A DNA stretch of 64,000 nucleotides from Vitis vinifera (lineage: Eukaryota; Streptophyta; Magnoliopsida; Vitales; Vitaceae). The DNA is taken from NCBI RefSeq assembly GCF_030704535.1, contig NC_081815.1, forward strand, positions 18,250,001 through 18,314,000. The letters are read 5' to 3'. The notes beneath the pieces were generated by a model that saw only the letters and a program-made list of their open reading frames with translations, did not search any database and had not been told where the DNA came from. The position numbers were made by a program, and so were the translations under genes. Shown one piece after another: positions 14,957-64,000 of this stretch; position 1 is the stretch's first letter; every line of letters starts with the position of its first letter.

Positions 14957-16110
14957 ACTCTTTTCTAGATATTAACTCAAGTATCCCACATTGATCAAGA
15001 GAAAAAGGTCTTAGTACTATATATGCATTGGGTTCATCTTCCTGCGAGAAGCCATTAGACTTAAAGTAGAAAATATTTGCATGGAAAGGAGCAAAGTACA
15101 CGGCACTGTTGGTTTCACCCCACAAGAGTAGTTTGTCTTGTCTCGCACAGAACAAGGACTTTGCTCTACAAAGCCAAAACTTGTATCCTGACTTTGGAAA
15201 ATGGGCAATCGATCGATAATAATACATTTTTTCTATATCATGAAGGATTCTGGTACAAAGAAAACACTCCTTAAAGGGAAGCTTAACCATGCAAATGGAC
15301 TCTATCAATTTTAGGTACCAAACTTCCAATCTATTCCTTCAAATAATTAGCAAAATAGCAATTGTCAGTTTTCTTCAAATGGCTGCCTCCCAATTCTTTC
15401 TAGTAATGTTTTGTGAACATCTATCCTTCAATAAGCCTAGTCTTTATCTTACTCAAGGTAAGTATGAAGTTGCTTGGGTATTCCTTTTGTCGACTAATCC
15501 CCAAGTGCAATGACTTTAAGTTTATAATACCCGGAAAGCATCCTAGCAGACGAACCCAAAGGAAGTGACTGAGAAACTAGTTTAAGAAGGAGATAGAAGG
15601 GAAATTCTTTGGATAATTTTGAGTAGTTCGTTTGTATACTCAATTTCTCGATATATTTCGATAATTTTACTAAAAAGGCTTCTTAAAGTTTAATATGAAA
15701 ACCAAGATAATGTTACTTTTTGAAGAAGCCCTTTGTTAACTTATGCTGAGAGGTTTCATATTTAATTAAAATTTCTTTGCATCAACATTGACCAGTTGTT
15801 AAGGCTTTTAGCTGAAGCTGAAAACAAGAAGCTATCCTAAACAAGGACTAGTACCAACTAATCTGCAGAAGAATGCAAATTCAGAGAGATATGAAACAGT
15901 TTTCATCATACCTGTAAATTGAGGACAAAACAGGAACATCTTTAATGGATGGGACTGAAAATAGGAGAAGAAAAATCTGCAGAATCCAAAAATTTATAGG
16001 GAATCCAACCTGAAACAGAATTGAAAAACAAATATCTGAAACCCTAGAAGTTTAATGAAGAACTCTATTTAGAACTGAAACAAAGACAGGGAGAGTATCA
16101 ACCATCAACA
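14957..16110. other. Unassigned region between copia remnant and LINE
   Basis: A frame of 124 codons exists on the - strand (15329-14955), but I recognise no family, and a second overlapping frame on the + strand is equally long-lived. The right-hand end is the pre-insertion target of the LINE. Confidence 0.3.
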
Positions 16111-16136
16111 AAATTATAGCACCCTTGAAAAAATGA

Positions 16137-21400: not shown

Positions 21401-22065
21401 ATGATTGGGAGTTGGGGTTGGTAGGCAATCTTTTAGTTGAGTTGAGGAATTATAGAGTAACTGTGGAGGAAGACTCGGTTCTTTGGAGGGAAGGAGCAGA
21501 CGGGCTGTTTAAAGTCAAGAAAGCGTATAGGGTGTTGGCTAATGCTGAAGGAGTGGACTTCCCTCATAGCAATGTTTGGGTGGACAAAGTTCCAACAAAA
21601 ATTGCTTTTTTTGCTTGGGAAGCTACTTGGGGGAAGGTTCTTACTTTGGATAGGCTGCAGAGAAGAGGGTGGCAATTCCCTAACCGGTGTTTCTTGTGTG
21701 GATGTGAAGAGGAAACTATCAATCATATCTTAATTCATTGTACGGTGGCAAAAGGATTGTGGGATATCATTCTTGCGTTGTGTGGTGTACAGTGGGTATT
21801 TCCAAATTCTATAAAGGAGGTTCTTAGTAGTTGGAAAGGCTCTTTTGTGGGAAGAAAAAGGAAAAAAGTGTGGAAATCCATCCCACTTTTCATTTTTTGG
21901 ACAATATGGAAGGAGAGGAATAAGCTAGCTTTTAAAGGGGGTGTGTTAGCTTTTCAGAAGTTAAAAACTTCGTTTGTGTATAATTTTTGGGGTTGGGCTA
22001 AAGTGTACATTGATATGGAGTCGAATTCCCTAATAGTTTTCTTGGAGTGGCTAGCCTCCAAGTAG
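18418..22065 (+). pseudogene. LINE ORF2: endonuclease, reverse transcriptase and zinc knuckle
   Basis: Single-frame ORF2 of 1215 codons with no frameshift, interrupted only by four TGA stops at 18817-18819, 20194-20196, 20962-20964 and 21046-21048. The APE-type endonuclease comes first (ILSWNVRGVND, QETKM, GGDFN, TSDHFPIL). Reverse transcriptase follows from about 19750 (DKAPGLDGF, DYRPISL, FIKGRQILDG, KGLRQGDPISPYLF). The C-terminal zf-RVT knuckle is at about 21690-21740 (CFLCGCEEETINHILIHC). In related ORF2s each of the four stop positions is Trp (TGG). The catalytic box reads FANDT where family members have FADDT, so one catalytic Asp (20494-20496) is Asn. The copy is therefore inactive twice over. 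Confidence 0.93.
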
Positions 22066-31511: not shown

Positions 31512-34037
31512 TGTAGACCCCCATATGGGGCTTGTTTTTTTCATTTGCTGTAGGTCACACTTCTTGCCAAGTGGAAGGCTCTTAAAGAGCCAGATGCTGC
31601 TTCTTGGTTGGGTGGTCAGTGAATCAGGTAGTGGGTTGGAAATGCAATGGGGTGGAGACACCTGTTGGAGGATATTCAGAGGAGCTTTTGGGGCTGTTAG
31701 AGTGGAGTTTGGTTATTCTTTGGAGGTGTGAGGGGGACCCTAACTCTCTGACCATGAATCCTGGCCAGATGGGACGGGCAGCCAGGAAGTTGAGGGCTTG
31801 ATGCCGGCTGCAGTAGGCGTGCAGCAGCAGGGAGAGTGGTTGGGCAAGCCATGCTTGCTGATCGGTGAATAGAAGGGCAGAAGAGTGGCTTGCAGAGGGG
31901 GACACCAAAAAAAAAAGAAAAAAGGAAGGAGTAAGGGGGAAAAGATATTTTTAGAGAGGTGGGAGAGGAATCAGTCAGGTTTGATTATCTCTTACTTGAT
32001 CTTATCTTATTTTTGAGGGTCACCTGACGTTTCTTGCTGGGATTCAGATGATTGCTTTGATTACCTAAGGAGGCAAACCTGTTTCTGACTTTTGTTTATT
32101 TGATCTTTGTTTTCTCCCGTATGAGCTGCATGTTGGATATATTTTGTGTTTGTGTGTTAAGTTCATTGAGATCCTCCCACCAGGCTCTTTTGAAAGCTCT
32201 TTTGGTCTTCGTGACGCAGAGCTTGGTTTTAGTGGTATTATCTCCCCTTATACATTGCTCTGTTCCTCTTCTTTTTTTGTTATTTTTCTTTTTCTTCACT
32301 TTTCCCCTCTATTCTTGGCATTTTCTGGAGAAGAGATTCGTTAGCTTGAGGGTGAAGCAAAGTAGCAAACTGCCTGGGTATATTTTGCAGAGTGAGAGGA
32401 GGAGAGCATTCCAGTTTTCCTAGCGTTTGGCTGGAGATATTTGAAAAGAGGAGATCTTTTCTTGGACGACAATGCTACAGAGAAAAGGTTGGAGACATTA
32501 GAGGTTTGAAGAAGCAAACTGAAGCTGTGAGGAGAGGCCCAGGCGGAGTTGCGGAGAGCAGGGAAAAAACTTGTTAGTTCGATCCAGAGCCACAAGATGG
32601 TTTTGGTTGAATGTGATTATCTGCCCATATATGCTCTGTTTTGGTTCTCTTTGATGCTCTCGTTTTTTCCCTTGTAAATGACCCATGTGCATGGAGAAAA
32701 GTTTAACTTGTCCAAGCAAAGGCTTTATGTTCTCATGATGAATAACACGGTTACCACATGCCTACACCTTCTTCACTGTTCGCATTATCCATACCCATTT
32801 CCTCGCTCAAGCTTGCAGGAATCAAGCATCCTCCACCACACCCATTTTCCTCTCATTCATTCTCCTTCCCACTCCCTCACTTACATGGAGTCTCACGGGT
32901 GCATGCTATCCTTCACTCCTTCACATACCCATTAAAACCACTCACCTAAGCCTCCATATCCATACAACCCACCAAACCTGTTTCTCTCTCTAAACTCTCG
33001 CCTACCTATGGGATCCTCCCTAAAAATGCCGCGTGGCTCTCTCTCCCTTGCACACGTAGACGGTCCCCCTTGCGATGCGCGACACAACTCATTCCATCAG
33101 GGAAAGAATTCTGTCCGGCCGACGTTCAACCGTTCTCCGGATATCTCACATCCGGAATTCTGTCCGGCCGACGTTCCACCTTCTCCGGATATTTCACATC
33201 CGGCGCCTAACGCCGAATGGGAGAGGAGGCGATTCAACTTCCCCGGTCAGACATGTCCGGATCCTCTGATAGTGCTTACCCGGAGAGCATCCACAGCCGA
33301 CAATTCAGATTCCCTCGGACAGCTTGGCTCGTCGGCCACTCGCGATTCGCCGGATCCATTTCCGCCCGCAATCTTCTGCTCCTCTTGATTTTAATAGGCA
33401 TGAATGTTTTTTTTTCATAATTCCGGAATAATGGAATCTGTGATATTAATTCATGCAAAATAAATGGGTTTTGGTGGGAGCCTTACATATGTGACTTTAT
33501 GATTAATTGATTGATTGTTTGCTTTGATTATCATACATGATTGATTCACCTTACTCTCTAACATATATGCGATTATTCTTAAATTGTGCACTAACCCTCT
33601 CTATTGATAGCGCATGGTGGCTCGTTGCCCAGGTATGTACCCATTTTCCTCTTATCGTTGTCTATGCATGTCTCGACTTTTATGTGTGCATGATCATTCA
33701 GGATATTCATTGATTTACTCGTCAATTGCCACATCAGCTTCATTTTATCAGTAGAGACCCGACTTTAGGGACTTAGAAGGGTGTTACGGTCTTTATCGTA
33801 CCTTCCCGATAAGTAACCTGACCCCCGAACCCGATCTGGTTTTTCGTAGACCACCTTTTCCAAATAAGGAGTCACACTTAGGGTTTTTCTTTCTTATTTT
33901 GTTTACCCTTTAAAAATAAAACAAAAATAAGTAGCGACTCCAAGTCATTTTCTTAATCAAATAAAATCATTTTTCAAAACAAAAAATCGAGCTCGCCATC
34001 GAGTGTGAAACACATGAGCCGAAATGCGGGGTCCACA
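31512..34037 (+). mobile_element. Solo LTR, 2.5 kb, Ty3/gypsy type, with 5-bp target duplication
   Basis: Starts TGTAGACCCCCATATGGGG and ends GCGGGGTCCACA (TG...CA). It is flanked by CAAGG on both sides (31507-31511 and 34038-34042). The last 300 bp (TTACGGTCTTTATCGTACC, CCTGACCCCCGAACCCGATC, TAAGTAGCGACTCCAAGTC) are the conserved LTR 3' region I associate with large Tat/Ogre-type grape elements. There is no internal gag-pol, so recombination between two LTRs probably removed it. Inside, 33107-33205 is a two-copy tandem repeat. The sequence starting at 48698 has the same first 13 bases. Confidence 0.85.
33107..33205. repeat. Two-copy tandem repeat inside the solo LTR
   Basis: Two copies of about 49 bp, each GAATTCTGTCCGGCCGACGT followed by a CTCCGGATATYTCACATCCG segment. 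Each contains several CCGG/TCCGGA sites, making this CpG-rich island conspicuous in AT-rich DNA. Confidence 0.85.
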
Positions 34038-48697: not shown

Positions 48698-49629
48698 TGT
48701 AGACCCCCATTTGGGGGATGGTCACTTTTTTCTTTGTTGTTTCTACGGGTCACATTTTTTTAGCTAGGTGTCATTACCCCCAACGGGCCACGTGTCAAAT
48801 CCTTAGGGGCCATAAGTGAATCAGCCTTGCTTTTTGGGAGACGAATATGAGCATGACATGTGGAGGAATATTCTAGAGGGTTTGCAGGCCGTTAGGGGGA
48901 GCAGATGAGAGAGAGGATTCTGCAGAGGGTGGTGTGACTTTTTGGTGGCTGTTTTCTGGAGATATTGTTGGAGGGTCAAATCGGGTAGAGAGAAGAGAGG
49001 GTGGCGGCTGGCAGAGGTAGGGTTGCTTTTTGTTGGTTGCGGGAGATATTTAGAGGAGGAGTTTTCTTTCTTGAAGAGAGGGGGCTAGAAAAACAGAGGG
49101 AGAGATTTTTGAGGTGGTATTCCTTTAGCTTGGGGGAAGCTACCGGTGAGAGTAAGGGAAAGAGAAGCTTGCTGGAGAGGGAAGCTGTGAGAGGAAAAGG
49201 CAACCGAAAGCTGAAACAGAGGAAAGAAAGAAAAAGTTCTTAGGTACGTTTGCTAGACCACATTTTGTTTGCCATTGATATCCTGTGGGTTGCTGTGACT
49301 ATGTTACAATATATCTGTTTCTTGTTCTCTATGTGAAACTTGTTTGAGAGTGATCTAATTCCTTTTTAGCTCTCCTTTGTGTGTTTGAGTCATATCTTGG
49401 GATTTTGTTTCTACCTGGTTTTCCCACCCATACATGAACCTACTGACTTCAATATAAGAGGAGGCTCATGTAATTGTTTTCTTAAGTTTATTTGGATGCT
49501 TTGTTTTTGTGCTGGCTTCCTTGCTACTCACTCTCTATTCTCGGAGGCTATTCATACCCCCAAGGAGAAAGGTCATGGCCAGATTTACCCTTGATTTTCG
49601 TATGGGCACAGTCTCTGAACCTGTTTTGC
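48698..49629 (+). mobile_element. 5' part of a large LTR, related to the solo LTR at 31512
   Basis: Begins TGTAGACCCCCATTTGGGGG after AATAT, sharing its first 13 bases with the LTR at 31512-34037. It then continues with similar GC-rich sequence (GGTCACATTTTTTTAGC, CCACGTGTC, many GAGAG blocks). The expected LTR 3' end (AGTAGCGACTCC ... GGGGTCCACA) is not found. Instead a series of host gene fragments begins at 49630, so this is either a rearranged LTR or the start of a gene-capturing element whose other end lies beyond the window. Confidence 0.55.
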
Positions 49630-49912
49630 AGATTGGATGACAAGCTCCTGCTTATGGACATAGTTTTGTTGGAGAGCAAACTCCACTTTTCTCTGAGAAA
49701 CCTCCCAAAAGCCAAGGCTGCCCCTTACAGCAGCAAGAACAACAACCAATGCTATTTATGTACCTCTTGCTCAACAGGGTACTATAGATTTGCAGAGTGG
49801 GATTCTTCATGCAGAAGAAAAGTTTAATAAAACTGCTTATGGCTATTTCTTTGAAGCTTTCAACACTCTTGAAGAGCCTTGGGCAGTGTTTAGTCTCGAG
49901 TATATGTTGCTG
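49630..49912 (+). pseudogene. Captured fragment of 26S proteasome subunit RPN6 (PSMD11)
   Basis: The + strand reads [31 protein letters not shown], then after a frameshift [25 protein letters not shown], and [27 protein letters not shown]. This is the central TPR-like region of RPN6, a lid subunit of the 26S proteasome, covering about 95 residues of a protein of over 400. There is no start codon, no PCI domain and no intron. A frameshift near 49725 makes it non-functional. It ends abruptly at about 49912, where the RABGGTB fragment begins. Confidence 0.85.
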
Positions 49913-50093
49913 GTGCTGAATCCCATGCAGGGCAGATATTTTGTCGGGTTGGTGCTCTTGCTTGGTTGGGTTCTCTACATCATGTTGACGAAGACCTCTT
50001 TGGGTGGTGGTTATGTGAACGACAAGTCCAATCTGGAGGACTAAATGGTCTGCCAGAGAGGCTTCCTAATGACTGTTACTCATGGTGGATGCC
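49913..50093 (+). pseudogene. Captured fragment of Rab geranylgeranyltransferase beta subunit
   Basis: Reads [59 protein letters not shown]. This is a prenyltransferase repeat segment of RABGGTB that includes the zinc-ligand region of the beta subunit (a Cys-Tyr-Ser-Trp-Trp motif). About 60 residues are open without stops. It is joined directly to RPN6 on the left and to a kinase fragment on the right, with no intron at either side. Confidence 0.85.
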
Positions 50094-50560
50094 ATCATGG
50101 CTGAATGGTTTACTCTCCGTCCTCTCTTTCCAGGATCGAATAAAGCAAATGAAATTTACAAAATATGCATTGTTATGGGCAGTCCAACTTGGAATTCATG
50201 AGTCGAGGGACTTAAACTTGCTAATACTATCAACTACCAATTCCCACAGTTCCCTAGTATTCATCTCTCTGTATTGATATCATCTACAAGTAAGGATGCA
50301 ATAAGCCTTATTACTTCACTTTGTTCATGGGATCCCTGCAAGAGGCCAACAGCTTTGGAGGCTCTTCAGCATCTTTTCTTCCAGAGTTGCTTTTTATGTC
50401 CTACCGTCCCTTCGTCCTCGAACTGCTGCGACTAGGACACTTCCCTCTGGTGGAACAAAGGGAGCTTTGGAGCATAAATCTGCTAGGAGGTGTTCGAAAC
50501 AAGCTGGAAGTGAATAATCAAAATGTTTATAAGAATGATAAATCCTTGAAGCACCGCTCT
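50094..50560 (+). pseudogene. Captured fragment of a CDKF;4/MHK-like protein kinase
   Basis: Reads [34 protein letters not shown], a stop, [20 protein letters not shown], then ITSLCSWDPCKRPTALEALQ and HLFFQS. This is the C-terminal lobe of a plant CDKF;4-type kinase (relative of MAK/ICK), including the conserved WDP-KRP-T motif of subdomain XI. After a 1-nt shift the post-kinase region continues (PSLRPRTAATRTLPSGGTKG, then ALEHKSARRCSKQAG). The N-lobe and catalytic loop are absent. The fragment starts just after the RABGGTB piece. Confidence 0.8.
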
Positions 50561-50735
50561 CCTCTCCTGTATTCGAAGCCACGAGATCGAAGAGAAAGCT
50601 TGCACATGATCACAAACCGAATACCGAGCGAAGATGGGAAATGGGCCCTTCTCGATTTTAAAAAGGTAGCTGTGATCCATTTTTGGCAAAAGAGTTAGGG
50701 TTTCACGCAACAGAGAAAGAGCAAGCAGCCATAGC
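50561..50735 (+). other. Unassigned coding-like fragment
   Basis: An open stretch (KPRDRRESLHMITNRIPSED ... FKKVAVIHFWQKS) ends at 50698, followed by GFHATEKEQAAIA in the next frame. It may be further captured sequence. I do not recognise the source. Confidence 0.3.
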
Positions 50736-51345
50736 TGTTGGTACCTCGCGTCCCAAGGATCCCTGCTATTGCCAAGTGGACATGTGCTATCAACCAAGAA
50801 GGAGTTCTAGCTCAGTCGATCTTGCAAAAGATGTCCGGACAGGATGTCCGGACACACCCTCCGATGGTTTTGTTAGTCATGACTTAAGAGATCAGACTAT
50901 TGGCTTTTTTAGGGTCCTAGGCTTACCTTCTTCCTTGTGTGAAGGCCCTTTTATATAATGTCAGAAGCTCTGCTCCCCTCTTTAATGGTGGGAAGACTTT
51001 TTGGCTTGTCATGATGTCCTCAAGGTGGCGGCAGGGTCATCATCACCCTGCAGGTGGCTGTTAGAGATCGTGGGAGGTGACTTGCCATCGCTCCTGTCAT
51101 TTCGCTCTGCAGGCAGCCGAACGTGGGCTATGACAGGCTGTCGAGGATGACTCAGCAAGGCTTGCTCGTTATAGTCAATGATCCGGACAATAAGTCCGGA
51201 TAGGATAGAGCATCGCCCGGGTATGATATTTGAGAGTGCCGTATGCCCCCCTGGGGGATCCGGATAGAGGTGCGCGCCACGTGTCCTCTTAGGGGTATGG
51301 ATAGATTTGATCCGGACAGCGGTGCGTGTTTGGGGGGTCCCTACA
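50736..51345 (-). mobile_element. Solo LTR of the Tat-type family (610 bp)
   Basis: Starts TGTTGGTACCTCGCG and ends GGTCCCTACA, aligning throughout with the 695-bp LTRs of the element at 53051-63319 (CCGGACACACCCTCCGATGG, CCTTGTGTGAAGG, AGATCGTGGGAGGTGACTTG). Flanks are ATAGC and ACAGC, a 5-bp duplication with one change. It is clearly older than the full element, with indels relative to it. Orientation follows that element. Confidence 0.85.
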
Positions 51346-52130
51346 ACAGCCACAATCGCACTTCCCCCTCTTTCTCCGTCGACGTCACCATGGTTTGTAT
51401 GCACAGTCGAGAACATTGGCTCGTTTGAAAATTGAAAAAGAATACAGTAAAGATAAGGAGTGCTTAGAGAGAAAAACATGGTGGTAGCTTGTATAGGAGT
51501 GGCTCTATATTGGGGCTATCTTCTTTACATGTTTATGGAGGATGTCCCTTCATTCAAGCTTGATGGTTGAGCTTGGTTGTTCCTTGGGGTGGTCGATATA
51601 AGCAGTTTTCTCTATGACGATGAGTTCGCTAAGTGTCTTAAGGACTATCCAAATCAGTTTAGGCATGACAAGGCTCTTGGAAGAGAGCAAAAGAGCAGAA
51701 AGAGAGAAGGGTACAAGAAGCGGCACCAGAATGTTGTATTTATTGGTTATGAGATGAAATAGGTAGTGCAACATTGATGGGTTCACTATTCACGCGTGCA
51801 TGCCACACTTACTCCTTCAAATACCCATTAAGCTCACTGCTCATATTCCTATTCAACTTTAACACCCCACCCATATCTGTCTACATCATTTCTACCCGTA
51901 TATATGCCCCCCTAGACCCACTATCTTTACCTGCTCATTAAACTAGTGTTGTACCCATCCTTGCATCCCCATTTACATCTTCATTTCATTACTCACGTCT
52001 TCGTCTTTTCTAACCAATCCATATACCCAATCTCACACGACAGTAACTTTTTCCTTCTCACTCTCCTATTCTTTCTCTCTCTACAGCCTCCGTACTATAG
52101 ATAATAAATGACGTTAAGATACGCCACCTG
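51346..52130 (+). other. Unassigned sequence, partly LTR-like
   Basis: The part at 51780-52090 (ACTCCTTCAAATACCCATTA, followed by C-rich CCCATATC/TACCCGTATAT sequence and CTCTCTCTCTAC) resembles 32890-33000 inside the solo LTR at 31512. The captured block at 49630-50560 therefore lies between two LTR-like pieces. 51577-51762 is an open frame of 61 codons, basic at the end, that I do not recognise. Confidence 0.4.
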
Positions 52131-52464
52131 TCATACCCATTGTCCATCAAAGCCTACATCACCTTTTAGCGTCTAAGCAAAATGTCGCCTTCTGCTCTTG
52201 TACAAAATGCACCTGCGTCAGGTTAATCTTCCATCTAATTGCAGCCTCAAGCCATGGAACTTTCAGCTCATCCAGCATAACTGCCATGTGTTTCTTTTTA
52301 TCATGATAATCTCTCCAGATGACGTCCTAAGTCCAGGTTCTGCAATATCCTTTAGGCCCTCAAGAAGCTCTTAAAGTAAACCCATTGGGAGACCTCCATT
52401 AGGTCCATCGCCAGCTGGATTCCACTCGTGTTCCAGAGGCCATGGTATCAGTTGCAGCATCCGT
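52131..52464 (+). other. Unassigned spacer before the SART3-like fragment
   Basis: Short coding-like phrases are visible, but none is assignable. May be additional captured sequence. Confidence 0.3.
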
Positions 52465-52964
52465 AGAAGCATATTGGAATACTATGAGAATGAGAGAGAA
52501 AGTGCAGTTGCATCAACAGATCAGATAGAGAATCCCCATGAGAAAAATGCCTGTGAGAAGAGAAAGTCAAGCTCTAGTAGAACTGATGAACAACCTTCAA
52601 CCAAGCGGCAGAAAGATTCTGCTCAAAACCCAAAGAAAGTTGATGGAAAAGGAAGAGTGGAATTGGAAAACATAGTTGCATCAAATGAAGAGCAAGAGCT
52701 CAAAGCTAAAGATGACATGAACAAGAGACAAATGAAAGGCCCCAACTATAAAAAAAAACAAGTACTCAGACCAATGCATAGCTTTTAGATCAAACCTTGA
52801 CCTTGAGACAATTTATGAACATCTACGTGATTTCTTCAGTGATGTTGGTGGAGTCACAGCTATTCGAGTATTGAATGATAAATTCACTGGAAAATCAGGA
52901 GGATTGGCATATGTGGATTTTTCAGATGGTGCCCACCTTGCTGCAGCTGTAGTAAAGAACAATG
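52465..52964 (+). pseudogene. Captured fragment of a SART3-like RNA-binding protein
   Basis: Reads ILEYYENERESAVASTDQIE through a Lys/Glu-rich, NLS-like linker (EKRKSSSSRTDEQPSTKRQK), then after a 1-nt slip in an A9 run an RRM: CIAFRSNLDLETIYEHLRDF, FSDVGGVTAIRVLNDKFTGK, SGGLAYVDFSDGAHLAAAVV. This matches the region between HAT repeats and first RRM of plant SART3/PRP24-type U4/U6 recycling factors, with the RNP1 motif recognisable. It has no intron and no start. It stops at KN, where poly(A)-binding-protein sequence takes over. Confidence 0.75.
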
Positions 52965-53050
52965 CTGGGTGAAAGTTTGTACCCTCTCGTGGATCAGCTG
53001 GAGCATGAGATGGCAGTTAAAGTGACAGGCATGCTTCTAGATGTGGACCA
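52965..53050 (+). pseudogene. Captured MLLE (PABC) domain of poly(A)-binding protein, left part
   Basis: Reads LGESLYPLVDQLEHEMAVKV then TGMLLDVDQ. This is the C-terminal MLLE domain of plant cytoplasmic poly(A)-binding proteins, with the KITGMLLE-type motif intact as KVTGMLLD. The frame is open up to the insertion site of the Tat element. The domain resumes in the same frame at 63325 after the target duplication GACCA. Confidence 0.8.
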
Positions 53051-53745
53051 TGTTGAGGCCTCGCGTCCCTGGTGATCCACGTAGTTGCCAAATGGATGGA
53101 CGCACGATCTCAACCAATATAGATTCCTGGTTCAGTCGTCACCTGCAAAAGATGCCCGGACGAGGGTCCGGACACACCCTCCGATGGTTTTGTCAGCCAT
53201 GGATGGAGAGATTAATCAGTTGGCCTTTTACTAGGTATAGCAAGCTTACCTTCTTCCTTGTGTGAAGGTCTCCTTTATATAGTGTCAGAAGCTCGTCCTC
53301 CCTCTTCAATGATGGGAGGACTTTTTGGCTCGTCATGATGACTCCAAGGTGGTGGCAGGGCCATCATCACCCTGTAGGCAGCTGACAGAGATCGTGGGAG
53401 GTGACTTGCCATCATTCCTGTCCTTTCGCTCTGCAGACGGTGGATCGTGGGAGGTGACCTGCCACCAACCCTGTCATTTCGCTCTGCAGGCGGCAGATAG
53501 TGGGCTGTAGCAGGATGCCAGAATGATGTAGTAAGACTTGCTTACTTTTAGTCAACGATCCAGACAAACATATCCGGATAGGATATGTCGGTCATCCGGA
53601 TGTGATGTTTGCGAGTGTCGTGTGCCTCTCTTTGAGGAAGTCCGGATAGGGGAAGCGTGTCATGTGTCCTCTTGAGGGAAATCCGGATGGAGCTAATCCG
53701 GATAGAAATGTGTGCCACGTGTCACTAGGGGGAAAGGTCCTTACA
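53051..53745 (-). repeat. 3' LTR of the Tat element
   Basis: 695 bp, TGTTGAGGCCTCGCG to GGTCCTTACA on the + strand. Contains six TCCGGA palindromes and, on the - strand, a TATATAAAGG promoter box near 53272. Confidence 0.95.
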
Positions 53746-53759
53746 ATGCCCCCTTTTAA
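53746..53759 (-). promoter_or_regulatory. Polypurine tract of the Tat element
   Basis: The reverse strand reads TTAAAAGGGGGCAT immediately before the 3' LTR, the expected plus-strand primer for reverse transcription. Confidence 0.75.
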
Positions 53760-53843
53760 CCTGCCCATTTTGCCCTGGCAAAATGGGCGGATTAAAAATG
53801 ATTGTTTTTTGAAACTGAGGCTTACTTTTTCCGCTCATTGGGC

Positions 53844-53981
53844 CACGTGGTGCGTGGGAGCGAAGAGGAAGAAGAACATTTATGACGAGCCGCCGACTCT
53901 GGATATTCCCAGGCAGCATGTCGTTTCAATAATGGCGCAGCTGAACGTTTGGGATACCGAGGGGCTGTCTCTCTATAAATA
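53844..53981 (+). promoter_or_regulatory. Promoter of the antisense gene
   Basis: A TATA box CTATAAATAG lies at about 53973-53982 and a palindromic G-box CACGTG at 53844-53849, both inside the element but outside the LTR. Transcription would start near 54005-54015 in the pyrimidine-rich CTTCCTCTTGC region and run rightward, opposite to gag-pol. Confidence 0.65.
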
Positions 53982-54447
53982 GCAGACTGTGCCTTCCTCT
54001 TGCATTTTTCCTTCTATATTTTTTTTTTCTGGTAGTGCTTTCTCTTCTACCTTCTGCGTATCTTCGTTCTCGAGTGAAGCTCTAGGGTTTTCTGCCGGCA
54101 ATACTCGTGTCGTGACAGTGACTGCACTGCGGATTTCATCTTCATTCGCCAGTTTATACTCGGTACGTTCTCTATCTCTGCCTTTTCCTCGTTTGTGTTT
54201 GCTTTGTTGGTTGTTTCTGGCTTGCTGGGCAAGTTTCTTTGAGACTGGGAGTTGGTATTGGTTTCTAGGGCTTTTTTCGGGGGGTTTGATCGTGTTTTGG
54301 GTGTGTTTAGGGTTTCTGTTGCCCCCCTGTGCCTTTTGTGGGCCACCGATTCTTCTTTGGGGTAGAGTTAAGGTTGTGGGGTCGGATTGCTGTGTTTGAC
54401 TGTTGGCATTCCTCCATGCAGATTCCATTTCGGCCCCAACCTAAAAA

Positions 54448-56903
54448 ATGTCTGCGAACAAGGAAGCTACTTCATCCAGCTCGTCCGGAGATGCTCATGT
54501 TGAGAAATCCGTGGATAAGTTGAATGTGAGGGAGTTTCGTGAACGTTTCTGCATCCTGAATGGCGTGTTCGTGGAACTTATGGACGGAGAGGCCGCATTG
54601 ACCGAGAAAACTGAGGATAACACTATCTTTTTTACCAAGGAGCAATTCAATGCTGGGCTCCGGTTCCCCCTCCCGTCGCTGTTCAAGGAATTTCTGCACT
54701 TTACCCAGATTCCTCCGGCTTACATCCACCCCAACATGGTCCGGGTGCTGATGGGGTGCAGCATTCTGAGCATGTTGTTCAATCTGGACCTCTCACTATT
54801 GGAGGTTCTTTTTATCTACTCCATCAAGAAGAGGAAGAATGATATCCATAGTTTTGTCGCCTGCCTTCCATCCCTTCAGTTGGTGACCAGCCTTCCGGAC
54901 TCGACCAAGGGGGCCGCCAAAGGACATATGCTGGTCAAGGGCCTATGGGCGGGTTTGTCGATGCATCCAGACAGGCAGTTCGCGCCCAACCATTCATTGC
55001 AGGTCTTAGATATGAATAAGTTACTTCCTGTCCTTCCGCGGTTGCGAGTTAGGTCAGCATTGTTAGGTGGCTGACATGCTTTGCTTTCTTGGGTGCAGGC
55101 AAGGAAAAAAGGGGACGGCTGGTAGAATGGGTGGAGAAAGCCTCGTTCGACCGGTTGAACAGGCTTTTTGAGATTGGGGCGGCCGAGAGAAGTTGTGAAA
55201 CGCTTCTCTCCGCGCAGAATCTCCGCTCTGTTACCTAGGAGCCCCAGCCGTACGTGCTCAACATACTTCCGAGGCGGCTGCCCAAAAAGGTGGTGGCTGG
55301 GGAGCATTTTGTTCTCAAATATCTTTATTTTTACGCGGTGGCGCGAAAGGCAGACGCTCGGGCACGCAAAGCCCATCTCAAATACCGGGAGGGGAAAAGA
55401 CAAGAAGGAATTTTGCGGAAGGCTCCTGGTGGTAAACATCCCGCGTCTTCTCCACCTGTTGGCGCCCCAGCGAAAAAGAAGAAGAAGTTGGTTCTCAGCA
55501 AGGGAAAAGAAATAAAACTCCCAACTCCCCTAAGGGAGGTTGTAATACCACCTCCAACTTTCGTAAAGGAAATAATGATAAGAGAGCCAGACCCCTTCGT
55601 CTTACCCTCTGTTTCAAGCGGCTCCAGACGTCTCGCGGGTCTAAACCATTCGGGGCCTTCAGTGCCAGCGGCTGGACGACTGGCTCTTCTGGCTGAGGAA
55701 GCGACTTCAATAAATCAGCCCGGCCCTCCCCATCCTGACGGGGATGCAGCTGGGGCCTCTTGTGCTGAAGCATTGCCTCCTACAGCGCCCCCAACGGAAG
55801 AAACGGGGGCAGAAAGTCAGGGTTTGCCTTCTTGCGAGCCAAGCCCCCTTGCCTTTGTACTGGTGAAGGGGCCAGCTACAAGGAGGTCTCGTCCGGCCCT
55901 TGACTTAAAGTCTGGCCTCATCGGGCGGCTTCAGGATCGTTTTCTAGAAGCCATCGAAGTCAGCTGCTCGTCCGTCCAGGAGGATCATCCGGAGGGGAGT
56001 GAGACAGAGATGGCAAAAGAGAACCCAACAGCCCTTGTGGTGGTCCCAGATGGGGGTTCACCCGGAGAGACCCAGCCGACCGAGAATGATGGGGCCTCGG
56101 ACCCGGGGGAGGAGTCACTTCCTAATGCCTCGTCAGGAGGGAGTCCCGTTGATGATGCAGTTTGCATCTCCGCTAGTCCTTTCAACTATGCGGAGTTGGG
56201 AGAGATGCTGAAACGGATTCCATCCGGCTCAGCTGTTGCTGTGCCTTCAGCAAAAATGTTTGAAGCGGCGGAAACGGTATAGTTTACTTCTTGATTTTTC
56301 TCGCCATACTGATGTGTTTGTCTCATGGGTTGTAATTTTTGCACTTCTTGTTTGTGGGTTTTTCTACAGCTGGTGAGCGGTATTCGCGACATGGCTCAAC
56401 AACGTGATATTTTTTCTGACCTGCTGCGGACTGCTGATTATATGAAGGCCTTCGTCTCTCAGCGCATAAATAGTGAAGAGGAACTACGCTTGAGATTGGA
56501 ACAGGCCAAAGCCAGTTTATCCGCTGCTCGAGATGACAACGAGGCTCTCCGGATAGAGCTAGCTGAGGCAAAGAGTCGGGAGGAATCTACAGACGCCCGC
56601 CTGCTTGAGGCGGAGGACGAGATGGCCCAGTTGAGGGGGGAAATGAGGCAACTCCGGACAGAGGTGTCTATTGAGAAAAAGCAAAGAGAAGATTTGCAGT
56701 TGCGTTTATCAGTGCAAAAAGAAGAGTTAGAGGCTGAGTTTGCTGCGGAAATGGAGGAACTTGAAGCGGACTATCAGAAGCAGGTAGACGAAATGTACTT
56801 CTTCGGCTACCATTGTTGTATGAAGAAACATGGTATCAAACGGGACATCCCTTCGATTCCCCCAGGTAAGGAGGAGAAGCTGCGCGACAAGCCTTCCCAA
56901 TGA
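54448..56903 (+). pseudogene. Antisense gene of the Tat element (gypsy-type Transposase_28-like protein)
   Basis: A spliced gene opposite to gag-pol, of the antisense-ORF type known from Tat elements; its function is unknown. A 5' UTR intron probably spans about 54161-54420 (ends CCATGCAG). Exon 1 is 54448-55002 (MSANKEATSSSSSG ... FNAGLRFPLPSLFKEFLHFT, IPPAYIHPNM), similar to the N-terminal Transposase_28 domain. Exon 2 starts at about 55104 (acceptor uncertain), reads EKRGRLVEWVEKASFDRLNR and a basic/proline-rich region, and ends at 56276. Exon 3 is 56370-56903, a long coiled coil (residues EELRLRLEQAKASLSAARDD onward). The 56277-56369 intron has clean GT/AG borders. One in-frame TAG at 55236-55238 breaks exon 2, otherwise the frame is intact. 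Stop at 56901-56903; AATAAA at 56993. Confidence 0.75.
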
Positions 56904-56992
56904 GAGCTTTTCTTTTTGTAATTTTTACTGCTATCTTCTCCCTATATTTTGTAGTCCGGAGAACTCTTTGTATACAATTTTTACAAGTATTT

Positions 56993-56998
56993 AATAAA
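56993..56998 (+). terminator. Poly(A) signal of the antisense gene
   Basis: AATAAA 90 bp after the stop codon of the antisense gene and 35 bp before the end of pol on the other strand. The two transcription units are therefore tail to tail with almost no spacer. Confidence 0.6.
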
Positions 56999-57032
56999 AC
57001 ATACTTATTCAAATTGCACTTCTATCTCTCTT

Positions 57033-60000
57033 TCATTGGTAATACTGCTTTAGATTAGATACATTCCATGGTCGGAGCAATGGGGTTCCGTCTAGCTTTT
57101 GTAGATGATAGGCTCCACTTTTACTTGTCTGAGATACTATATAGGGGCCTTCCCAGTTGGCTTGAAACTTTCCCGCTTCTATCTCAGCAGTATTTTCGAA
57201 AACCTTTCTAAGGACCAGCGTACCATTTTTGAAACTTCTGGGCCTTGCCTTGCGATTGTAGTGAGCGAATGCCCTTTGTTGATAGTCTGCCATCCGGATG
57301 GATGCAGTTTCTCTTACTTCGTCTGCCCAGTCCAAGTTTCTTCCTAACTCCGCATTTGCATCATCCTGTCTTCCTGCCTCGGTCCGGATAGTGGGTAGCC
57401 CTATTTCAGTAGGAATGATCGCATCCATACCCTATGCGAGGGCGAAGGGAGTGTTTCCTGTCGGACGTCCGGGTGTGGTTCGATAAGCCCACAGGACGCC
57501 GGGTAGCTCCTCCACCCACTTTCTTTTGGCTTGATCGAGCCTCTTCTTTAAGGTAGTTATTAGGGTCTTGTTTGTGGCCTCTGCTTGCCTATTACTTTGA
57601 GGATAACGTGGTGTGGAGTATGAATTCCGGATGTGTAGTTCCGAACAGAAATTCCGGAAAGTGATGCTATCAAACTGTGGACCGTTGTCGGCTATAATGG
57701 TTTGGGGGATGGCAAAGCGATAGATGATGTTTTTCCATACGAACTTGGTGACATCTTTGTCTTTGATACTAGCGTATGCTTCAGCTTCCACCCATTTACT
57801 GAAGTAATCCGTGGCGACGAGCAGGAATTTCTTCTGGGTGGGTGCGGTTGGTAGGGGTCCTACTATGTCCATGCCCCACTGCGCGAAGGGCTAGGGGCCT
57901 GAAATTGGATTCAACGTCTCCAATGGCACATGTGGTATGGGATCATGCCTTTGACATTTGTCACATTTTTTTACGTAGGCTGCCGCATCCTTTTTCATCG
58001 TGGGTCAGTAATACCCTTGCGAATAGGCCCTGTGCACCAAAGATCGTCCTCTAGAATGGTTTTCACATACCCCCTCGTGCAATTCAGCTAACACATACAT
58101 GGCCTCTGAGTGGTTTAGGCACCTGAGATAGGGACCTGTAAAGGAGCGCTTGTACAAGTGCCCCTCGATCAGGGTGAAATGTGCGGCTTGCACCGGGATC
58201 TTGTGTGCCTGCTTGGGCTCTTCGGGCAGAATGCCTGCCCGGAGGTACTTTATGATGACTTCCATCCAACCTTGGCTGTCTGCTTGGCTTGCCTCAATGG
58301 TATTGCAAGTGGAGGCTTCCGTGACGGAAGGATTGGTTTGCATATGCACAGGCAATAATATGGCTTCTTTGATGGGGAGGGAAGCAGCTATGCCTGCCAG
58401 GGCGTTAGCACGTCCATTTTCAGTTCGTCTAATTTTTTCGATTGTCCATTCGGTGAATCGTTGTAAGATGTCCCTTACTTTAGTCAGATATCACGCCATG
58501 CGCGCATCCTTAGCTTCGTATTCTTTCTGAACGTGCCTTACCACGAGTTGGGAATCACTATAGACCCCGAGCCTGGAGACAGATAGAGCCAAGGCGAGGT
58601 CCAATCTGGATAGGATGGCCTCATACTCTGCTTCATTGTTAGAGGCGGGGAACCCCAGCCGGATGAATTGCTCCAGATGTTCTCCTGTTGGGGACTGCAA
58701 TAGGAGCCCTACTCCGGATCCTGATGCCCGGGAGGCTCCATCGACCCACAAAGTCCACCACTCTTTTTCACTTGGTTCCTTGTGCTGGATAGGCTTTCGG
58801 GAGTATTCCAGCACGAAGTCAGCCATCACTTGTCCTTTCATGGACAACCTGGGTTGGAACTCGATTCCATATTCACTCAACTCTATGGCCCATTGAAGCA
58901 TTCTTCCGGTTAAGTCCGGTTTGTGCAGAATGTTGCGAAGAGGCTGGCCAGTTAGCACGACCACCGGATGGGCTTGGAAATAAGGGCGGAGCTTCTGGGC
59001 GGCACTTCGAAGAGCTAAGGTCGTTTGCTCCATCTTTGAATACTTGGTTTCTACGTTCGTCAATGCTCTACTGACGTAGTAGATAGGTTTCTGCTCCTTG
59101 GGTGAGGGGCAGCGGAATAGAACAACGCTAATTGCCCACTCCGATACAGCCAGATACATATACAGTTTTTCTTCAAGGAGGGGACTGCTCAGGATGGACG
59201 GTTGCATGAGGCAATGTTTAATTTTTTCAAAAGCGTTTTGACAGTTGTCTATCCATCTGTTTGCTCCAGCTTTTAGTATTGCCAAGAAGAAGGGTCGTAG
59301 TTCATCAGTGAAGCGGGCTATAAAATGCCCTAGCGCGACGAGCTTGCCTGTGAGGCGCTGTAATTCCTTTTTGCTCCTGGGGGGTGGTGTTTCCATGACT
59401 GCCTTGACTTGGTCCGGGCTGACCTCTATCTCCTTTTGGCTGACCATAAATCCCAGGAATTTGCCAGCACTTACGCCAAAGGCTCATTTAGAAGGATTCA
59501 ACTTCATACCATACTTCCTTAAGAGGTGGAAGACTTCTTGCAAGTGGAGGACATGTTCCTCCCGGGTTTTGCTTTTAACCATGATATCGTCAATATATAC
59601 ATCTACTATGCGGCCGACCAGATGTTTGAAGATCTTCATCATCAGTCTTTGATAAGTGGCGCCAGCGTTTTTGAGTCCGAATGGCATGACTTTGTAGCAA
59701 TAAAGACCGTGTGGCGTTATGAAGGCTATCTTTTCTTCGTCAGCCGGGGACATGGGGATTTGGTGGTATCCGAAGAAGGCGTCCAAGAAAGAGAGCATCT
59801 CTTGCCCAGTAGTGGAGTCCACAATTTGATCTATCCGTGGTAAAAGGAAACTGTCTTTTGGGCATGCATTATTGAGGTTGGTGTAATCGACGCACACCCG
59901 CCATTTGCCTTCCTTTTTGGGTACCACCACTACATTTGCCAATCAGTCCGAGTACTCCACTTCTCTGATGAATCCGGCTTCCAACAACTTGTCAATCTCA

Positions 60001-60826
60001 TCCCGGATGATCTTTTGCCTGTCCGGGTGAAAACGTCTAACCCTCTGTCAGACGGGTCTTGCTGTGGGCAAGACGTTAAGTCTATGAGAGACGATGGAGG
60101 GATGAATTCCCTTCATATCAGAATGTGCCCATGCGAAGACGTCATGGTTTTGTCGGAGGGCGTCTTGGATGTTCCGGGTTTCTTCAAGTGTCAAGAGGGA
60201 ACTGATATATGTAAAGTGAGTTCCTTCTTCCGAAATTTGGATCGTCTGCAAGGGATCCGCTACCGGGGGATCTTTGTCCGCCGGACTCAATAATTGCTAT
60301 TGGTCAAGTGCATGGCTGGACTCAGGGAGGGGTGTATCCTCCTGGCTGGTCCCTGCTTCTCGTGCTATCTGGTAGCATTGGCGAGCGGCTAACTGGCTGC
60401 CGTATAGGTCGATTTGCCCATCTTTGGTAAGGAAGCTTACCATTTGATGATACGTAGAGGGGATGACTTTCATGTAGTGGAACCATGTGCGCTCCAAGAT
60501 GACATTGAAGGGTGATAAATTTTGTACCACCGAAAATTGCACGTTGAGAGTGACTGGGCCAGCTTGGACCGGCAGTACAATATCTCCCAAGGAAGTAGTT
60601 GACGCCCCGTTGAATCCGAACAAGATTCGCCCAGGATTTTCGAGGCCTGTGAGATTGTGCCCTATGTGGCTAACGATCGATGCTTGTACAAGATCGGCCG
60701 AGCTGCCCGGGTCAACTAGGATGCGTCTCACGTCAAAGTCTCTCATCTCTAGGGACAGGATGAGGGCGTCGTGGTACGACTATAATATCCGTGTGGGGTC
60801 TACTGGTGGGAAAATGATTGTCCCAT
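57033..60826 (-). pseudogene. Tat-element pol: protease, RT, two RNase H domains, integrase
   Basis: One reading frame from about 60826 down to 57033 with no internal frameshift, but nine stops: 60780-60782, 60297-60299, 60048-60050, 59943-59945, 59484-59486, 58491-58493, 58005-58007, 57891-57893, 57432-57434. Protease motif VDPGSSADLV near 60710. Reverse transcriptase 59940-59490 (KWRVCVDYTNLNNACPKD, catalytic YIDD). First RNase H about 59200-59000 (YYVSRALTNVETKYSKMEQT). Second, archaeal-type RNase H about 58760-58500 (WVDGASRASGSGVG, NNEAEYEAIL, YSDSQLVV). Integrase 58355-57440 with HHCC finger and core (MDIVGPLP, ADNGPQFDS, RQAEATNKT). Most stops replace Trp, Arg or Gln codons by single transitions. 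The frame relation to gag suggests loss of one G in the G run at 60841-60846. Confidence 0.92.
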
Positions 60827-62578
60827 CTATGGGGCGAGGGCCCCCCTAGTTATCCCAGGCCGGATGGAGTTGACACGGTCCCGCACCGATGCTGCTCGCA
60901 ACAACCTCTGTCTTTTTTTTTTGGAGTACTCCTCGTCGAATGGGCCTCCGTTAATATAGTTTATAACGGCTTTGGGGGCGGTTGGGGTCCTGGGGGTTCC
61001 AGAGTTGTGATTTATGGAAGCGTCTCCACCTCTGGCATCTGAGCGGATGTATTGCTTTAAATGTCCCGCCTTTATGAGCCTTTCGACCAAATGGTGGAGG
61101 CACCTGCACGCCTCCGTTGTGTGACCATGCTCCTTATGGAATGCACACTTTTTACTATGATCCCTTTTGGATGGGTCCGTTCCGAAGGGTCTAGGCCACC
61201 TGAAATCGGACATGTCTTGGATCATAGGGAGAAGCTTCTCATAGGATATGGAAAGGGGTGTGAGGGGTGGCATTTTCGGGCGACTTGGCCCTTCCTGTCT
61301 TCGATCGGACGGCCTTGGCCGGTTTGAAAGTTTGGCACTTCTTTCCGCACCCCTTCTGGATGCCTGTTCGGCAACCAAGACTTGCTGGGTGGCTGCTCGC
61401 ACGTCATCTTCAAGCATTGAATATTTACTTGCACGCCGGAACAAGTCGTCCATCGTCGTAGGAGGCTTCTTAGCGAGTGATTCGAAAAATGGGGTGCCTG
61501 GACAGATGCTTCTCTTAAAGATCTGCAGGACAGCGTCCATGCTGTAAGCCTCTACCTGTAGCACGGCTTGACCAAACCGCTTTACGAACTCCCTTAAAGA
61601 CTCGTTATCTTGCATTTTTATGTTTTGCAGAGTGCTGATGTTCTGCTTATGTCGAGCGGAGCACAAGTATTGTCCCACGAAGGCTTCCGACAGGTCCCTG
61701 AAATTATCAACAGAGTTGGGAGGTAGGCGGTGAAACCATGAGAGGGTCTGCCCTTGTAGGTTGGCGGGGAATACTTTGCATAGCAGCGCGTCGTTTCCTA
61801 TATCGAGAGTCATGAGTTGACGATAGTGCATGATATGGTCGAAGGGGTCGTTGGACCCATCGTACGCGGAGAATTTAGGCACGAGGAATCCCCTTGGGGG
61901 CTTGTAATGAATAATATGAGAGCAGAAAGGTATGGAGAGCATGTCGTCCAACCTTTTGCTGATGGAGCCAATGGGTGGCTCGTTTGGGAGGTTTCTCCCA
62001 GCTTGTCGTACCGCTAGGTACGATTGAACGTTCTGCACCATAGGGGTGACCATAGGGTCACGGTGCGGGAGAACGTTATGCACTGTAGGGGTGACCATAG
62101 GGTTAGGGTGCGCTCCCCAGGTTGTGGCTACTGGCGGCCTTGGCCTCCCAGGCTCCTGTGGGCCTAGTCTCGCGCACATTGGGTCTGACAACTGGGGTTT
62201 TTTATCGCGTTGTCTTTTTGCTGAGAAATGAGTAGAGTCTGAGCTTTCCTCATGGGGAGCTCGGTGCATGGGCGTGTGTGGCTCATGTGACCTAACGTTG
62301 CATGTTTCAGGGATTGCTCCTACTGCCCCAGGGTATATTGACTCTGGGTCAGGCCTTGAGTTTGCTACCTGGCCTCTTGAATGCTGATGACGGGGAGGTC
62401 CCGTCGATGAAGCTTGTATGCGCAACACAATATTTTCTTCTCTTAATCTTACCGTCTCCTGGAGGAGAGCTTGCAGTTGTTGCTCGCTTGCCAACTGTCT
62501 TCTTTCGATGGCTCGACGCCATTCAGAATTATCTTCCTCTTCCCTAGCAAACGAGCGGCTTCTAGAAGGTGTGGTCAT
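60827..62578 (-). CDS. Gag of the Tat element
   Basis: Open frame of 583 codons from the ATG at 62578-62576, 26 nt after the primer site. It has a coiled-coil-like N-terminus (RRAIERRQLASEQQLQALLQ), a proline-rich middle, and the retrotransposon-gag domain (FSAYDGSNDPFDHIMHYRQL ... FPANLQGQTLSWFHRLPPNS). A zinc-knuckle-like CAFHKEHGHTTEAC motif follows at about 61120-61160. Gag forms the particle that packages the RNA. The frame also runs upstream into the LTR, but the ATG at 62578 fits the leader better. It ends at TAG 60827-60829, shifted relative to pol. In related elements gag and pol appear to be one frame, so this boundary may be a mutation. Confidence 0.85.
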   Translation of the reverse strand: MTTPSRSRSFAREEEDNSEWRRAIERRQLASEQQLQALLQETVRLREENIVLRIQASSTGPPRHQHSRGQVANSRPDPESIYPGAVGAIPETCNVRSHEPHTPMHRAPHEESSDSTHFSAKRQRDKKPQLSDPMCARLGPQEPGRPRPPVATTWGAHPNPMVTPTVHNVLPHRDPMVTPMVQNVQSYLAVRQAGRNLPNEPPIGSISKRLDDMLSIPFCSHIIHYKPPRGFLVPKFSAYDGSNDPFDHIMHYRQLMTLDIGNDALLCKVFPANLQGQTLSWFHRLPPNSVDNFRDLSEAFVGQYLCSARHKQNISTLQNIKMQDNESLREFVKRFGQAVLQVEAYSMDAVLQIFKRSICPGTPFFESLAKKPPTTMDDLFRRASKYSMLEDDVRAATQQVLVAEQASRRGAERSAKLSNRPRPSDRRQEGPSRPKMPPLTPLSISYEKLLPMIQDMSDFRWPRPFGTDPSKRDHSKKCAFHKEHGHTTEACRCLHHLVERLIKAGHLKQYIRSDARGGDASINHNSGTPRTPTAPKAVINYINGGPFDEEYSKKKRQRLLRAASVRDRVNSIRPGITRGALAP

Positions 62579-62604
62579 CTTTGCCGGTGACTGAATCAGT
62601 GAAA

Positions 62605-62624
62605 CTTCCCACAGACGACGCCAA
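62605..62624 (-). promoter_or_regulatory. Primer binding site region of the Tat element
   Basis: The reverse strand directly after the 5' LTR is TTGGCGTCGTCTGTGGGAAG. It has the TGGCG(C/T)CGT start typical of Tat/Athila primer sites. I have not matched it to a specific tRNA. Confidence 0.65.
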
Positions 62625-63319
62625 TGTTGAGGCCTCGCGTCCCTGGTGATCCACGTAGTTGCCAAATGGATGGACGCACGATCTCAACCAATATAGATTC
62701 CTGGTTCAGTCATCACCTGCAAAAGATGCCCGGACGAGGGTCCGGACACACCCTCCGATAGTTTTGTCAGCCATGGATGGAGAGATTAATCAGTTGGCCT
62801 TTTACTAGATATAGCAAGCTTACCTTCTTCCTTGTGTGAAGGTCTCCTTTATATAGTGTCAGAAGCTCGTCCTCCCTATTTAATGATGGGAGGACTTTTT
62901 GGCTCATCATGATGACTCCAAGGTGGTGGCAGGGTCATCATCACCCTGTAGGCGGCTGACAGAGATCGTGGGAGGTGACTTGCTATCATTCCTGTCCTTT
63001 CGCTCTACAGGCGGTGGATCGTGGGAGGTGACCTGCCACCAACCCTGTCCTTTCGCTCTGCAGGCGGCGGATAGTGGGCTGTGGTAGGATGTCGGAATGA
63101 TGTAGTAAGACTTGCTTACTTTTAGTCAACGATCTGGACAAACATATTCGGATAGGATATGTCGGTCGTCCAGATGTGATGTTTGCTAGTGTCGTGTGCC
63201 TCTCCCTGAGGAAGTCCGGATAGGGGAAGCGCGCCACGTGTCCTCTTGGGGGAAATCCGGATGGAGCTAATCCTGATAGAAATGTGTGCCACGTGTCACT
63301 AGGGGGAGAAGTCCCTACA
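62625..63319 (-). repeat. 5' LTR of the Tat element
   Basis: 695 bp, TGTTGAGGCCTCGCG to AGTCCCTACA on the + strand. It holds the element's promoter: TATATAAA on the - strand at about 62848-62855. Only three of the six TCCGGA sites of the other LTR remain intact. Confidence 0.95.
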
Positions 63320-63357
63320 GACCAGACTGAGGTTTCGCATCTGTTTGAGTCACTGGA
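63320..63357 (+). pseudogene. Captured MLLE domain of poly(A)-binding protein, right part
   Basis: Starts with the target duplication GACCA and continues the frame of 52965-53050 (TEVSHLFESLE), completing the MLLE core up to the ESPE-type segment. It then passes directly into IWS1-like sequence. Confidence 0.75.
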
Positions 63358-63530
63358 GGTGAAGAAGCTTTGGGATATGATTGCAGGAGGAGATTCTGAG
63401 GATGATCACGAGGGTCCAAGGACTGTGGATGATTTAACTTCATAGAGGATAGTGGTGTTGACCCTACTGACCAATTTGGAAGTGACCGTGAAGCACGTTC
63501 CCTTGGTGATGCTCCTCAGGCGGAGGAGGA
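63358..63530 (+). pseudogene. Captured fragment of transcription factor IWS1
   Basis: Reads KKLWDMIAGGDSEDDHEGPR, TVDD, then after a 1-nt deletion FIEDSGVDPTDQFGSDREAR, SLGDAPQAEED. This is the acidic region preceding the TFIIS N-terminal-like domain of plant IWS1 (Spt6 partner, brassinosteroid signalling). The conserved domain itself is absent. Confidence 0.75.
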
Positions 63531-63672
63531 TAATGAGAATGCAATTGAATATATAGATGATGAGGATGTCAGTTGGAAAGTTCGAAGAGCAGCAGTTAAA
63601 TGTTTAACAGCTTTGACTGTTCTTGACCTGAAATGCCCTCGAAGTTGTATGAGGAAGCTTATCCACAAGGTC
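63531..63672 (+). pseudogene. Captured fragment of CAND1 (cullin-associated NEDD8-dissociated protein)
   Basis: Reads YIDDEDVSWKVRRAAVKCLT, ALTV, then after a frame slip EMPSKLYEEAYP. This is the HEAT-repeat segment of CAND1 with the hallmark DDEDVSWKVRRAA. Only about 45 residues are present, no intron. Confidence 0.8.
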
Positions 63673-63689
63673 CTTGATATGACCCGTAA

Positions 63690-64000
63690 GGTTGCTGATG
63701 AGAATTCCTACCAGTTTCTTCAGTGAGAATGATGATACAAATGAAACAAACTATTGGAGGTGGTTCCAATCTCCTCATCTAATTCTTGTAATTGATAGGA
63801 TCCAGGACCCAGATAGCCTGGGTGCATTGCTTTGATCAGCTATGGCCTTTAGATGGGGTGGTGCTTTTCTGCTAAGTGGAGGTTGTGATCCATTCAATGA
63901 GAAGTCCCTTCGAGCTAGCTGGAGAGCCTCTTTTCAGCTCCCTATAGTTTCTGGTAGTTGGATTCATCTAGAAACCCTCAAAAATGAATTCCAAATGAAG
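63690..64000 (+). pseudogene. Captured fragment of a SpoU/TrmH-family RNA methyltransferase
   Basis: Reads IPTSFFSENDDTNETNYWRW, FQSPHLILVIDRIQDPDSLG, ALL, a TGA stop at 63833-63835 (where related proteins have Arg), AMAFRWGGAFLLSGGCDPFN, EKSLRASWRASFQLPIVSGS, and on to the window end. This is the start of the SPOUT methyltransferase domain (motif 1 around DRIQDP). The SAM-binding motif 3 would lie beyond the window. Confidence 0.8.

Follow-up and report, generated by a model that had tools for sequence, protein, structure and literature searches.

A 64,000-bp window of Vitis vinifera DNA (C11:18250001-18314000, in a genome of 495.6 Mb and 21 contigs) contains near its right edge a patchwork of nine host-gene fragments. 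All nine lie on the + strand in coding sense, and the patchwork sits inside one giant long terminal repeat (LTR), which is solo at this locus (Table 1). An earlier reading made from the sequence alone (the sequence-only reading) had named eight unrelated fragments in this orientation. All eight are present by PDB, Pfam and genome matches, and the ninth comes from a DUF3444 gene. We read 49-64 kb, searched the genome with the array and extended the sequence rightward, where both the SpoU piece and the carrier pass the window edge. The matching genes lie on contigs C2, C7, C12, C14, C17 and C18, which excludes pieces of one normal gene. No open frame spans the whole array among its reading frames, and the stretches 51347-52186 and 64157-64740 are accounted for in part only.

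The sequence-only reading also took the fragments to be joined head to tail. The fragments stand but one continuous array does not, since a Ty3/gypsy element, which makes up 10.3 kb of the span, and a solo LTR are nested within the array. The two LTRs of the Ty3/gypsy element (53050-53745 and 62624-63319) are 95.3% identical. This element divides the PABP piece and is absent from the copy of the array on C2; it is younger than the array. With both insertions subtracted, the carrier is about 5.85 kb long. Within the Ty3/gypsy element, an open frame antisense to gag-pol (54445-55071) gives a weak, sub-cut-off Transposase_28 match (E 0.007).

The names RPN6, RABGGTB, CAND1/2, kinase, RRM, MLLE and SpoU are based on PDB or Pfam matches. 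RRM and MLLE domains are detected by Pfam in sense frames on the + strand, and so is the kinase tail, for which PDB gives a generic match. The gene matching the SpoU piece scores PF00588. The finer names IWS1, SART3 and CDKF;4 are putative and follow the sequence-only reading.

Table 1. Features of the array, its carrier and related units (window positions unless a contig is given; TSD, target-site duplication)
Feature	Position	Strand	Matching gene or locus (identity)	Exons/introns removed	Remarks
Solo giant LTR with array	48698-64000, on to 65434 (C11:18315434)	+			Ends TGTAGACCCC...GGGGTCCACA, the latter outside the window
RPN6 (26S proteasome subunit) fragment	49630-49912	+	C14:6495992-6495702		Gene intronless; PDB E 8.5e-25
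RABGGTB fragment	49901-50092	+	C12:7745387-7745652	2/1	PDB E 1.9e-25
CDK-like kinase (CDKF;4-like) fragment	50086-50563	+	C2:18344842-18349500 (91.8%)	8/7	
DUF3444/zinc-ribbon-like fragment	50545-50697	+	C17:1270044-1269892 (81.7%)		One open frame
Nested solo LTR	50736-51345	-			Related to LTRs at 53050 and 62624; flanks ATAGC / ACAGC, 4/5 match
Piece without gene name	51410-51715	+	C9:2987778-2987475 (90.5%)		
Stretch common to C2 array	52187-52975	+			Genome search
SART3-like fragment	52499-52975 (aligned)	+	C12:24194811-24193616 (87.7%)	3/2	
PABP MLLE fragment, left part	52962-53049	+			Resumes past nested element
Ty3/gypsy element	53050-63319	-			gag, reverse transcriptase, RNase H, integrase; TSD GACCA
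PABP fragment, right part	63325-63356	+			Alignment
IWS1-like fragment	63356-63520	+	C7:1873600-1872648 (94%)	2/1	
CAND1 fragment	63518-63655	+	C12:24068312-24068072 (88.5%)	2/1	CAND1/CAND2, best PDB match E 5.1e-8
SpoU methyltransferase fragment	63695-64000, on to 64156	+	C7:24742628-24740905 (91.6%)	3/2	
Second solo LTR, same family	31512-34037	+			Exact TSD CAAGG
Related unit	C2:4610639-4607749				TSD GGTAG
Related unit	C2:4617994-4621060				TSD TTGAT

Spliced origin and junctions of the fragments

Spliced alignment of the fragments to the matching genomic genes accounts for 14 introns in six of the eight named fragments. Each intron is gone exactly at the splice site; 13 are GT-AG and one is GC-AG. 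The introns are precisely absent, and therefore the pieces came from spliced mRNA. RPN6 and PABP are uninformative on splicing, the first because its gene is a single open frame of 446 amino acids and the second because the captured stretch corresponds to one exon. The sequence-only reading had seen no introns and had proposed that a reverse-transcribing element captured spliced mRNA. The removed introns, the single orientation and the short shared sequence at the junctions strongly support that proposal.

At the five junctions that were scored, the neighboring donors have 8, 7, 5, 6 and 6 nucleotides (nt) in common. The probability of a single junction under random registers is 0.0005-0.008, for shared words chosen post hoc from the alignments, with the first junction scored on the captured RABGGTB copy in place of the gene, and with the SART3-PABP overlap entered as 8 nt. 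That overlap is taken here as 6 nt, as two of the eight lie in an apparent PABP intron. The IWS1-CAND1 junction lacks a partner and is unscored, as are CAND1 on its right side, SpoU on either side and SART3 on its left.

The carrier LTR and its relatives

Exact 5-bp TSDs flank three related units that have the ends of the carrier with at most one mismatch, namely the second solo LTR in the window and two units on C2. On C17, a relative has two 3,967-bp copies (11385849-11389815 and 11400045-11404011) that are 98.97% identical and flanked by the TSD CCCGT. This pair identifies the carrier unit as an LTR, and the captures therefore lie inside the LTR. The relatives thus show the TG...CA ends, the constant 5-bp TSD and the two near-identical direct LTRs of an LTR retrotransposon. 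Candidate primer-binding-site and polypurine-tract sequences are seen around the LTRs. Inside the C17 element, Pfam detects no domain in the parts read, which were three sense frames over 3.4 kb and a further frame over 1.2 kb. Short tandem protein-like repeats (L068:1665-2541) closely precede its 3' LTR. Given the exact 5-bp TSDs and the LTR pair in the relatives, we dropped a guess from two old copies, that of a DNA transposon with inverted ends and a 7-bp TSD. The array had also been read as cargo between two LTRs, the second to be sought to the right of the window. This does not hold: the array is inside one LTR, solo here, and because of this no second carrier LTR is expected at the locus.

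The 3' end of the carrier gives 4,367 first-look candidates in the genome, of which 40 were scored; these are candidates and not confirmed copies. Among the best 40, with the own locus excluded, one match starts at query base 24 and 39 start at 533-671. Among these best-scoring candidates, the last 615-755 bp are therefore the part common to otherwise different LTRs. Parts of the second solo LTR also recur widely (1,474 first-look candidates).

Copies with the same junctions, which the sequence-only reading had suggested looking for, do occur elsewhere in the genome. An array at C2:4.61 Mb has 52187-53049 joined to 63320-64004 at 86-89% identity, with different sequence on both sides of the shared part up to the shared 3' end. 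It is without 112 bp (63687-63798; L012, C2:4612840), either gained here or lost there, which is close in size to the first SpoU exon piece. In loci on C14 and C9, the stretches 49484-50181 and 51768-52021 are joined to each other, 2 bp apart. The segment 49901-50111, with RABGGTB and the first bases of CDKF, occurs in seven other loci and is followed there by different sequence. Parts and junctions thus recur with other neighbors, which shows that the array grew stepwise and by exchange among related LTRs, and it was not built in the single reverse-transcription event once proposed for it.

Two copies on one strand at C2:6.216 and 6.232 Mb, both with RABGGTB, are 99.84% identical over 2,433 bp. 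They start at TGTAGACC and their left flanks differ; one flank is purine-rich and ends in GGCATATT, like the sequence preceding the C17 3' LTR. From these features the two copies are probably the LTRs of one young element. A near-identical pair with RABGGTB in both members argues that captures travel in LTRs and are copied into both.

Host domains are found by Pfam in sense frames of five of 14 further LTRs and in antisense frames of none (7 of 48 sense and 0 of 48 antisense frames match). The 14 are 11 of the 19 loci L048-L066, two C2 LTRs and 31512-33380 of the window. Loci L050, L054, L059-L062, L065 and L066 were left out as near copies or relatives, and L051 and L055, both included, have 375 bp in common. 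The 1.5-kb upstream stretches used might extend beyond an LTR start. The domains are DNA_pol_phi (L049), Cnot1 ARM (L053), Peptidase_S8 (L055), AMPK1_CBM (L056) and cellulose synthase (L064). Two of these, Cnot1 and Peptidase_S8, score under Pfam's own cut-offs. The AMPK1_CBM piece matches three collinear blocks on C10 with gaps of 870 and 98 bp. The DNA_pol_phi piece matches two blocks on C3 that are 1.7 kb apart, with 11 query bases between them unmatched. Such separated collinear blocks are as expected from a spliced origin of the two pieces. The stretch 31512-33380 has no Pfam host domain, and neither flank of the C2 array, outside the 14, has a Pfam domain. Six LTR copies (L054, L056 and L059-L062) lie on one strand over about 205 kb at C17:13.22-13.43 Mb, with 96-99% identity over 0.5-1.5 kb. 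The apparently spliced AMPK1_CBM piece is present in L056 at least.

Capture mechanism and alternatives

The array lies in a solo LTR of what is probably a high-copy giant-LTR family, and the most probable origin is capture of spliced mRNA by template switching of the reverse transcriptase during LTR synthesis, followed by reshuffling. The growing minus-strand complementary DNA (cDNA) would leave the element RNA during LTR synthesis and anneal over a few bases to host mRNAs inside the particle. A few hundred bases would be copied from each before a return to the element RNA. Each cycle duplicates the LTR, so that a capture would be fixed in both copies and spread with them. In later cycles, copy choice among related LTRs, or recombination between their DNA, would add, exchange and remove pieces. 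The shared last 615-755 bp would adjoin the primer-binding site, where synthesis starts, and would fit a misdirected first-strand transfer as the proposed step: strong-stop cDNA would prime on host mRNA rather than on the 3' end of the element.

Several points weigh against this account. The flanks of the array itself (AATAT and AAAAT) match as a TSD in only four of five positions, the C2 array has no clear-cut left end, and the C2:6.216/6.232 copies, compared over 2,433 bp, are a probable pair. Nine of the 14 further LTRs have no Pfam host domain in their sense frames. RNA copy choice and DNA recombination are both possible routes of exchange between the LTRs. Some fragments stop at exon ends: IWS1 and CAND1 do so on the right, as far as the matched exons go, and PABP probably does on the left.

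Host cDNA from another source, such as the enzymes of long interspersed nuclear elements (LINEs), could also have served as filler in the repair of double-strand breaks in LTRs, and the patched LTRs would then have spread. Such filler accounts for spliced sequence, and microhomology at joins is typical of end-joining too. However, either orientation is expected, whereas sense orientation holds for all nine fragments and for those that Pfam detects in five other LTRs, and the LTRs would need many repeated repair events. We consider this unlikely. An ordinary LINE-type processed pseudogene is rejected because one donor per insertion is expected and nine donors are in one unit.

Slightly less plausible again is an uptake of genomic pieces as DNA, introns included, with later splicing of the element transcript. 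Intronless copies would result here too, and the ends at exon edges just listed would fit, as would the 112 bp missing from the C2 array, close to one SpoU exon piece. Yet the right end of RABGGTB, both ends of CDKF, the left end of IWS1 and both ends of SpoU fall within exon sequence, even though exons make up about 10% of the CDKF span and 17% of the IWS1 span; the SpoU gene sequence beyond the break carries on the SpoU profile. No LTR with a captured intron turned up, though none was searched for.

That a DNA transposon (Helitron, Pack-MULE or Pack-CACTA) made the captures is very improbable: such elements do carry multi-gene patchworks in plants, but kept introns and no LTR ends are expected of a Helitron or Pack-MULE, and here the introns are gone and the relatives have TG...CA ends, 5-bp TSDs and, on C17, an LTR pair.

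Template switching during LTR synthesis may even be routine in this family, with its thousands of candidate 3' ends, a broader and more tentative idea that we hold to be possible and no more. Strong-stop cDNA, with the shared LTR end copied, would commonly prime on packaged host mRNAs. The LTRs would then be a growing and reshuffled archive of spliced host transcripts, still spreading in young elements.

Searches for genes captured by LTR elements usually look between the LTRs, where the host-gene segments of the maize element Bs1 reportedly lie. Capture of mRNA by LTR elements and template switching into an LTR are already known. Bs1 is described as an LTR element in which three host genes are represented by segments (PMC13317346). 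It resembles the present case in this respect and differs in that here nine donors lie inside an LTR and are common to other family copies. For pepper NLR genes, LTR-driven retroduplication is described as the uptake of spliced mRNA, for the most part by LTR elements that are non-autonomous (PMC5664825); the genes described there come from between LTRs, in contrast to short fragments of many genes within an LTR. Template switching has put foreign sequence into the LTR of BARE-2 and other LTR chimeras, which comes from other retrotransposons (PMC13317346; PMC1950507) and not from host mRNAs as here. Searches of the open-licence literature listed no account of numerous host cDNAs lying within LTRs and shared through a large family, which is a weak absence. 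The family resembles Ogre/Tat and LARD elements in its LTRs of several kb, the tandem repeats before the 3' LTR and the absence of Pfam domains from the interior parts read. We know of no host-mRNA patchwork in Ogre/Tat or LARD LTRs.

If the account holds, the ends of LTR elements can serve as collecting places for host messages. Chimeric exon combinations would then stand beside LTR promoters in two copies per element, and masking may have treated captured sequence as LTR. The junctions would record template switching, and stray first-strand transfer onto cellular mRNA in plant retrotransposons would become testable.

Elsewhere in the window, 6 kb (16001-22000) show a strong GC skew of 0.36-0.40 that differs from the surroundings.

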